This document shows, piece by piece, positions 25,750 through 26,612 of a stretch of DNA of 64,000 nt (position 1 is its first letter; each line of letters starts with the position of its first letter). The stretch is taken from NCBI GenBank assembly GCA_943349825.1, contig CALQZQ010000003.1, forward strand, positions 1-64,000. The letters are read 5' to 3'. The notes beneath the pieces were generated by a model. The model was not told where the DNA came from, did no database searches, and saw only the letters and a program-made list of their open reading frames with translations. The translations under genes were made by a program, and so were the position numbers. Source of the stretch: Candidatus Peribacteria bacterium (GTDB lineage: Bacteria > Patescibacteriota > Gracilibacteria > UBA1369 > 2-02-FULL-48-14).

Positions 25750-25790
25750 CCTTGCCTAAATCCACGGTTTGTCTTACCATGCGCGCACGT

Positions 25791-25867
25791 GATCGTGTAG
25801 CTCAGTTGGATAGAGCATCAGCTTGCGGAGCTGAGGGTCGCAGGTTCGACTCCTGCCACGGTCACCA
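25791..25867 (+). tRNA. tRNA-Arg(GCG)
   Basis: Cloverleaf read by eye: acceptor GATCGTG pairs with CACGGTC with one T-G wobble, D arm GCTC/GAGC, anticodon stem TCAGC/GCTGA around loop TTGCGGA, T arm GCAGG/CCTGC with loop TTCGACT, discriminator A, and encoded CCA at 25865-25867. Anticodon GCG (25825-25827) reads CGC and, by wobble, CGU. Most bacteria use an ACG tRNA edited to inosine for this box. Confidence 0.93.
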
Positions 25868-25869
25868 TT
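25849..25869 (+). repeat. 21-bp direct repeat, copy 1 (3' end of tRNA-Arg)
   Basis: Covers the last 19 bases of the tRNA-Arg gene, including part of the T arm, the acceptor 3' strand and CCA, plus two following T. It is identical to 26024-26044. Direct repeats of a tRNA 3' end are the hallmark of attL/attR sites left by tRNA-directed integration. Confidence 0.9.
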
Positions 25870-26023
25870 TTTGATGGTGGGCTTCTGCCCGACATCGAAA
25901 ATGTTTATCAATAGAAAAGGAGGCGAACCATAGGTTCGAAGCACCCGAGGAGCGAAAGAAGCGGAAAGTTCACTTTCCATTTCTGAGCGACGAAGGGTGT
26001 GCATACCAAGCGGAGCGCGGTAT
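25870..26023 (+). other. Structured element with four serial hairpins, inserted behind tRNA-Arg
   Basis: About 154 bases without a convincing gene, exactly between the two tRNA-end repeats. Inverted repeats follow one another: 25873-25896 (GATG..GGGC / GCCC..CATC); 25924-25938 (CGAACC-ATA-GGTTCG, perfect); 25942-25999 (CACCC / GGGTG outside, GGAAAG-TTCA-CTTTCC inside); and 26003-26023 (ATACC / GGTAT), which ends at the second repeat. It could be a small noncoding RNA co-transcribed with the tRNA, or a miniature mobile element. No integrase fits in it. Confidence 0.6.
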
Positions 26024-26044
26024 ACTCCTGCCACGGTCACCATT
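26024..26044 (+). repeat. 21-bp direct repeat, copy 2
   Basis: Identical to 25849-25869, 175 bases downstream. It carries the tRNA-Arg 3' end including CCA but no other part of a tRNA, and ends seven bases before the next start codon. Confidence 0.9.
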
Positions 26045-26051
26045 CTTTGGT

Positions 26052-26612
26052 ATGACAAACCCAGAAACACTCCTCACTTTCCACCTCCAAAACAAGCCCT
26101 GGAGCTTTTATACAACCTGGGGTCTTTTCAGCCCCAAAGACCTCGACGACGGCACCCGTTTACTTCTAGACAACTGCACCTCCAAACCTAGTGATCATAT
26201 TTTTGATTTGGGCTGCGGCTACGGCCCCATTGGCGTCATTCTGGGCAAAGATGCCGCTTCAGTAGACATGGTGGACAAAGACTTTGTCGCAGTGGAGTAC
26301 GCGGAAAAGAACGCCACACTCAACGGCCTCAGCAACGCCAAAGTCTACCTGTCTAATGCTTTTTCCCACGTGCCCGCCGATGCAAAATTCGACCTCATCG
26401 TGTCCAACTTGCCCGCCAAACCCGGCAAAGAATTTTTTGAGCTCATGCTCAACGACGCCAAAGCTCACCTGGCTCCAGGCGGCCGGATCACCGTGGTTTT
26501 CATTGCAGGACTCCGCGAGTACATCAAGCGCATGTTCAAAGAAGTCTTCGGCAACTACCACAAACTCGCAGACGCCAAAGGCTATACAGTGGCTGAGGCT
26601 CACATGGAATAG
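26052..26612 (+). CDS. RsmC-like class I methyltransferase (MTS domain), 186 aa
   Basis: The single small-methyltransferase domain has motif I IFDLGCGYGPIG (~49-60), an acidic residue after strand 2 (VDMVDKD), and NLPAKPG, a variant of the NPPxxxG motif used by MTases that modify base amino groups. Opens with TFHLQNKPWSFYTTWGLFSPKDLDDGTRLLL, as in the C-terminal half of RsmC (16S rRNA G1207). Half-size RsmC homologues without the N-terminal domain are common in bacteria. rRNA modification is the likely role. Confidence 0.82.
   Translation: MTNPETLLTFHLQNKPWSFYTTWGLFSPKDLDDGTRLLLDNCTSKPSDHIFDLGCGYGPIGVILGKDAASVDMVDKDFVAVEYAEKNATLNGLSNAKVYLSNAFSHVPADAKFDLIVSNLPAKPGKEFFELMLNDAKAHLAPGGRITVVFIAGLREYIKRMFKEVFGNYHKLADAKGYTVAEAHME

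Follow-up and report, generated by a model that had tools for sequence, protein, structure and literature searches.

Direct repeats that run from the T-loop to the CCA of a tRNA gene correspond to the classic att architecture of tRNA islands, which rely on tyrosine integrases and in which the repeat keeps the tRNA intact. Sites that are recombined as folded single strands are represented by the attC sites of integrons and by attP(+) of the CTX phage, and small elements with strand-specific hairpins are generally known from the IS200/IS605-derived and REP/RAYT groups. In Escherichia coli, 178-bp repeats (the tyrT/tyrV repeats) are located behind tRNA-Tyr genes, and the corresponding RNA, named RtT (Rfam RF00391), is annotated by RefSeq as an sRNA ‘processed from tyrT transcript’. 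To our knowledge, the E. coli tyrT repeats and the RtT RNA are so far without an evolutionary explanation. A literature search on RtT/tyrT repeats and on folded DNA at tRNA genes, performed on open-access sources (outside of which most subscription journals fall), retrieved no description of the class of elements presented below.

In the current work, a stretch of 64,000 nucleotides of a Candidatus Peribacteria genome (named “the window”) was analyzed, in which the 3’ end of a tRNA-Arg(gcg) gene, ACTCCTGCCACGGTCACCATT, recurs 175 bases further on (start to start), leaving 154 bases between the two copies (Table 1). The chance of such a 21-mer repeat within ~1 kb is of the order of 1e-9 by our own arithmetic. 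Folding of the DNA in between generated four serial hairpins, the last of which stops one base before the CTCCT of tail copy 2, as well as a fifth helix in which AGGAG pairs with this CTCCT and thereby closes the last three hairpins. An earlier note on this DNA, based on reading of the letters, had described the perfect repetition of the tRNA 3’ end including CCA (21/21 bases identical), the four hairpins and a spacer too short for an integrase; these statements hold, 154 bp offering no room for such a gene, and only the closing AGGAG/CTCCT helix had been missed. With RNA parameters, z-scores of -4.3 (25868-26050) and -3.5 (25912-26042) were obtained, 0 of 200 shuffles being as good; with DNA parameters the fold is nearly unchanged at a weaker z (-1.6). 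The hairpin loops are ATA and TTCA, i.e. not GNA, and the element is present as one copy in its 1.25 Mb genome. The first hairpin has a counterpart with a similar start in a relative of the same genus (G001), TTTTAGTGGTGGCTTGCCCACC. The segment 25868-26044 is probably what we here call a tRNA-tail cassette, meaning a short non-coding DNA at the 3’ end of a tRNA gene that is flanked by two tail copies, each spanning T-loop position about 58-60 to CCA, and that leaves the tRNA intact.

Table 1 Features of the tRNA-Arg(gcg) locus, in window coordinates
Feature	Position	Strand	Basis
tRNA-Arg(gcg), intact, CCA encoded; host gene of the cassette	25791..25867	+	ARAGORN; Rfam RF00005, 68.5 bits
Tail copy 1 (T-loop end to CCA plus TT), within and just past the tRNA gene	25849..25869	+	Identical to 26024-26044
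First hairpin, without clear T run; site of a terminator-like hairpin in many other loci	25868..25901	+	Fold
P1a, AGGAG, antisense of the 3’ strand of the host T-stem; pairs with CTCCT of tail copy 2	25918..25922	+	Fold
P2, CGAACC-ATA-GGTTCG, antisense and sense left half of the host T-arm	25924..25938	+	Fold
P3, long hairpin with internal motif GGAGCGA / GAGCGACG (possible tandem G.A pairs)	25941..26000	+	Fold, motif
P4, last hairpin, stops one base ahead of the paired segment in copy 2	26003..26023	+	Fold
Tail copy 2, second tRNA-Arg 3’ end including CCA	26024..26044	+	Identical to copy 1

A pattern composed of a tRNA tail, 110-170 bases and a second such tail not preceded by T-loop TTC (which excludes tandem tRNAs) was searched over 84,980 species genomes and retrieved at least 119 stretches; the tail repeat is built into this pattern, only a part of the tRNA types is within its reach, and no frequencies are derivable from it. 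Among the stretches listed, a direct tail repeat is present in 118 of 119 (exact over 16/16 bases in 111), a tRNA is predicted by ARAGORN at the first copy in 114, and the taxa given in the titles of the records include Alphaproteobacteria, Gammaproteobacteria, Clostridia, Saccharibacteria, Gracilibacteria, Nitrospira and Verrucomicrobia. Of 380 sampled Patescibacteria genomes, 8 matched the pattern, versus 0 for the reversed control. Many listed loci share a common plan: (from 5’ to 3’) the tRNA, a terminator-like hairpin, an antisense T-arm (P1a/P2a, often GGATGAGAACC or near it), GGTTCG (P2b), at least two hairpins (P3, P4), and a tail copy from the T-loop to CCA. In the listed loci, the left edge of the repeat is mostly located two to four bases before the CC of the T-stem, and the right edge usually within 3 bases of CCA, extending at least 12 bases in 23 of 115. 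Closing of P1 on the tail copy is clear in L110, L120, L133, L180, L154, L177 and E. coli; a P1 complementarity score of 7 or more was found for 29% of listed loci versus 8.5% of shuffles, P1 not being evident in every member, and the MAFFT alignment of the class shifts P1/P2 by one or two columns.

The window element contains an exact T-loop-to-CCA tail copy that is not a tandem tRNA, and folds into P1 to P4, its P1 comprising 5 bp with copy 2 and thus being shorter than in the clearest members; the P1a helix is also present in L110, L180, L133 and E. coli. Its P2b is AGGTTCGA, as in the host tRNA, and its P3 carries the Patescibacteria-type motif GGAG(N)CGA / GAG(N)CGACG, with both halves in the expected places. 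Judged on anatomy and the P3 motif, and not on overall sequence similarity, the element would belong to this class.

In E. coli, the cassette plan recurs in the tyrV repeats and in the spacer between tyrT and tyrV, with GGAAGGATGAGAA / GGGTGAGAACC, GGTTCGA, and AATCC followed by the tail. They share with the window element the position behind a tRNA gene, the tail copy at CCA (19 bp in E. coli), the antisense T-arm (GGAAGGATGAGAA), GGTTCGA, hairpins of the GAGCGA type and the closing stem with the tail copy, whereas the window element is associated with another tRNA, has other P3/P4 sequences, is present as one copy rather than an array and has no RF00391 match. A search of 25780-26060 against this model gave no match with E up to 10, the E. 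coli copies scoring 134-138 at a gathering cut-off of 45 bits, so by score it is not an RtT member; by position it does resemble one, being located behind a tRNA, terminating with a copy of the tRNA 3’ end and containing the antisense T-arm and the closing stem. Just below the cut-off are L147 (40.8 bits, E 1.6e-4) and L130 (38.6 bits, E 5.7e-4), these matches coming from Salinisphaera and Steroidobacteraceae. Sequences nearly matching the RtT unit were retrieved from 4680 of 5426 complete E. coli genomes, at 1 to 9 places each. Two strains were read beside K-12: MS 21-1 has neither unit, both of its tRNA-Tyr tails joining straight to flanks that match K-12, and IAI1 carries a single unit, at tyrV, its tyrT-tyrV interval being free of units. 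Such differences could be losses or array contractions as well as gains. The E. coli tyrT repeats thus appear as one case of a class that extends from Proteobacteria and Clostridia to Patescibacteria, and their presence or absence at strain level makes function and movement directly testable in laboratory strains. RtT-like units also occur in 27 records of a plasmid collection, 12 of them from Klebsiella; some of these records are chromosome-sized and may be mislabelled.

Agreement between cassette and host tRNA was determined for the 39 listed loci with a P2 of the GAACC..GGTTC type, in which P2b tracks the host T-arm: agreement was found in 36 of 39 for the base that follows GGTTC and in 27 of 39 for the one preceding it, and tests of two positions gave p = 2e-4 (Fisher) and p = 4e-5. 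Tailoring is statistical at P2, and a moderate excess was observed for P1. In the clearest Saccharibacteria loci (L304, L311, L312, L313 and L315), P1/P2 match the host tRNA as judged by eye, including the GAGTTC of tRNA-Ser and the GGTTTCGA of tRNA-Gly.

In Saccharibacteria, as many as six occurrences of the P3 motif GGAGNCGAG..CGAGNCGACG were counted in one genome, the control giving few matches. Nineteen such hairpins were read in their loci, of which 11 have an upstream tRNA, followed in 10 of these 11 by a tail copy with no more than one mismatch; hosts of this body type are tRNA-Ala, Tyr, Leu(caa), Leu(gag), Gly(ccc), Glu(ctc) and Ser(tga). L288, L289, L291 and L292 are among the hairpins whose locus shows no tRNA upstream, and several of these are bounded by short inverted repeats, e.g. 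ATAACAC..GTGTTA. The N:N’ position of P3 was counted in 57 distinct hairpin-like sequences picked among the Saccharibacteria P3 matches, and is occupied by C-G in 38, A-T in 3, T-A in 2, G-C in 1 and G.T in 0, the other 13 being purine-purine or C-A. In the window P3, N and N’ are both absent, i.e. a paired deletion. The window’s class gave 18 P3 motif matches in 241 genomes, mostly coding-like as judged by eye, and the palindrome CGAACC..GGTTCG, found in 3 of 89 genomes of the window’s order, is a poor marker on its own.

In an all-against-all comparison of the listed loci, similar bodies occur behind different tRNAs: those of L133 (tRNA-Glu) and L127 (tRNA-Leu) are 87% identical over 68 nt, with tail bases that differ at 11 of 26 positions, and further pairs are L133/L180, L083 (Tyr) / L100 (Arg) and L159 (Leu) / L184 (Arg). 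Two or more downstream tail copies are present in 12 of 118 listed loci, including arrays of one repeated unit (three in L165, four in L179) and arrays with different bodies (L124, L150, L183). L131:1-236 contains tandem tRNA-Arg copies, the second being split in the T-loop by a hairpin body of ~86 nt. Fresh transposition within one species was not seen. Viral contigs gave no match to the tail-repeat pattern, and phages and plasmids none to the window element; GGATGAGAACC..GGTTCG gave 65 matches in viral contigs, which is at or below chance by our own estimate, and among the best of these, scored for a closing stem, the six top-scoring ones did not look cassette-like when read. A miniature island with an integrase was rejected, the element containing no gene and no viral, phage or plasmid carrier having been found. 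The window’s genome encodes two Phage_integrase proteins, both on other contigs and neither inside nor bordering the 154-bp element.

Among the flanks of the 37 tRNA genes (Rfam) of the window’s genome, a full downstream copy of the last 18 bases was found only for tRNA-Arg(gcg). Behind tRNA-Gly(tcc) of this genome (L058; G000:C2 around 82300-82380), GAGGGAAGCGAACCCGGAGGGTTCGAAGCTCGAGCGAAGTGAGTGAG presents a cassette-like P1a/P2/P3 start and no recognisable tail copy, and is possibly a decayed member. Of 29 tRNA-Arg loci fetched from relatives, those of G055 and G094 carry the tail copy with other bodies, the G055 cassette being identical to L107 (record ‘Peregrinibacteria bacterium isolate Bin_155’); in G004, of the window’s family, a tail copy follows tRNA-Glu. 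A tRNA-Arg without second copy is present in G001 (same genus) and in G004 and G005 (same family). In the latter two a homologue of the window’s upstream gene is located on the same 3-kb locus as the copy-less tRNA-Arg, but the window’s downstream gene was not found there, and they are hence not strain-level empty sites. Empty sites of the window element, for which no close relative was found, are thus those at genus and family level and none at strain level. For a genuine element the earlier note had expected covariation in homologues or empty or alternative tRNA sites in relatives: relatives without the second copy do exist, at the above taxonomic distance and not between strains, and P2 changes with the host tRNA.

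We consider it somewhat probable that the element is a mobile DNA cassette which is tailored to its target and resembles a folded recombination site. In the corresponding model, the upper strand would fold such that the antisense T-arm (P1a-P2a) pairs with a sense T-arm (P2b to tail copy 2) that is split at the T-loop, where P3 and P4 would protrude. This fold would rebuild, on one strand, the double-stranded T-arm of the cassette’s own host tRNA, and it may be on this folded single strand that a recombination or copying reaction acts when the cassette enters a T-loop. The insertion step would adapt P1, P2 and the tail to the new host tRNA. The process would be somewhat comparable to the way in which folded attC sites or attP(+) of the CTX phage work. 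Simple site-specific recombination does not explain the new T-arm, because the cassette must bring the right tail, and a copying step would therefore be needed. A gene-less element that mirrors its target tRNA would require such a copying mechanism, and we know of none for tRNA-targeting elements. Both the single-stranded intermediate and active mobility are inferred.

The enzyme involved is possibly the Xer recombinase of the cell. Eight cassette-rich Saccharibacteria genomes encode one tyrosine recombinase domain in seven cases, presumably the housekeeping Xer, and two in one case. No Y1 transposase was found in these eight genomes, and mobilisation of the IS200/RAYT kind was rejected on this ground. 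Four genomes of the same genus without a P3 match exhibited no clear difference from the cassette-rich ones, and hence no enzyme candidate emerged from this comparison.

By analogy, the cassette would share with attC and attP(+) a folded strand that recreates a double-stranded core, a strand-specific structure and the occurrence of cassette arrays; it differs from them by the lack of an integrase, by several helices instead of one and by the tRNA T-loop as target. Compared with tRNA-targeting integrative elements, it has the same T-loop-to-3’-end direct repeat, but is about 110-175 bp long, lacks genes and an integrase, contains an antisense T-arm and follows the host tRNA sequence. IS200/IS605-derived and REP/RAYT elements are likewise small and have strand-specific hairpins, but are distinct from cassettes in that the latter are located at tRNA ends and that cassette-rich Saccharibacteria have no Y1 transposase. 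The suggestion of the earlier note that the DNA may be a miniature mobile element using tRNA att sites is in part borne out, in view of the many different tRNAs, the arrays, the cassette-free E. coli strain and the similar bodies across tRNAs. The cassettes look like a widespread, overlooked mobile element. A broader formulation, put forward tentatively and with slightly less than even confidence, is that gene-less mobile cassettes occur bacteria-wide at tRNA T-loops, fold as a single-stranded DNA replica of the host T-arm and copy the target T-arm and tail at each move, the E. coli tyrT repeats being one family.

The nature of the folded molecule was approached by counting helix positions with four flanking Watson-Crick pairs on each side. 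In the bodies these are occupied by Watson-Crick pairs in 113 cases (2 expected from shuffles), G.T in 3 and A.C in 2, and within the 38 bases next to the tRNA, where terminator-like hairpins predominate, by Watson-Crick pairs in 154, G.T in 15 and A.C in 3. With three flanking pairs, the G.T:A.C ratio amounts to 30:32 for bodies and to 25:5 for terminators (p = 0.0015), and G.T against Watson-Crick differs between the two with p = 0.045; in Saccharibacteria P3 stems, G.T:A.C is 39:41 overall, and 7 versus 0 at one position. Body loops are mostly triloops, of which C-GNA-G accounts for 42 of 109 versus 2 for the complementary C-TNC-G, and terminator loops are mostly tetraloops with C-GNA-G in 0 cases. 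GNA triloops are extra-stable loops of DNA mini-hairpins; CTTG loops suit DNA and RNA alike. The lack of a G.T excess and the GNA triloops favour folded single-stranded DNA over RNA, as indications and not as proof, because the tests were designed with the data already in view and related sequences among the matches listed were counted.

These counts bear on the alternative that the cassette is a structured non-coding RNA, which would be co-transcribed with the tRNA, released by end processing at both tail copies and act as RNA, as proposed for E. coli rtT. The earlier note had offered such a tRNA-linked RNA as its second option, and an RNA product is indeed possible: the E. coli member is annotated as a processed sRNA and has an Rfam model, the window element folds strongly as RNA with a better z than under DNA parameters, and the 3’ end of the cassette copies a natural tRNA processing site. 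Nevertheless, a terminator-like hairpin separates the tRNA from the body in many listed loci (by eye), the class helices lack the G-U signature that the terminators of the same loci do exhibit over A-C, the triloops on one strand are of a DNA-suited type, and tailoring to the host T-arm is not obviously required for RNA function; we therefore regard an RNA function as rather unlikely. In-place duplication of the tail by replication slippage or by fold-back template switching at tRNA palindromes, with the hairpins as by-products and no dedicated element, would fit P1a/P2a being antisense to the host T-arm, as fold-back synthesis would yield, the lack of an enzyme candidate, the variable copy number in E. 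coli, and a bodiless, closely spaced tail duplication at tRNA-Pro(cgg) in the window’s genome (L051; G000:C4 around 80500), where CGCCACTCCGACCAGTTTT starts 41 nt past the tRNA end. This explanation is unlikely in our estimation, because slippage moves no body to another tRNA, whereas P3/P4 bodies are conserved across loci with different tRNAs and the GGAGNCGAG/CGAGNCGACG motif is far above control in Saccharibacteria. Very unlikely is the remnant of a tyrosine-integrase island that retained attL and attR and lost its interior: the T-loop-to-CCA repeats have the corresponding anatomy, but the spacer is structured, its plan recurs in different phyla, arrays are present, and one P1-P4 plan would not result from unrelated deletions.

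Other sequences that are linked to tRNA genes were also observed. In the window’s genome, a tRNA-Asp (L038; G000:C1:204256) and a tRNA called Thr(tgt) (L067; G000:C4:51430), which resembles an altered tRNA-Asp, are followed by similar downstream sequences, each of which holds a copy of the anticodon arm of its own tRNA (GTCACCCAGG / GTCACCCGCG). Relatives within the order (L009, L011, L015, L022, L031) carry another recurrent motif after tRNA-Arg, like AGCTTTTTCAGCAnnTCCCTACTGA and in some cases with GACGGCCAGGAG, which suggests another tRNA-linked repeat family. Finally, the minus strand of 25774-26070 in the window contains a 98-codon ORF antisense to the tRNA and including GRSRTCDPQLRKLMLYPTEL, a typical spurious tRNA-antisense protein.
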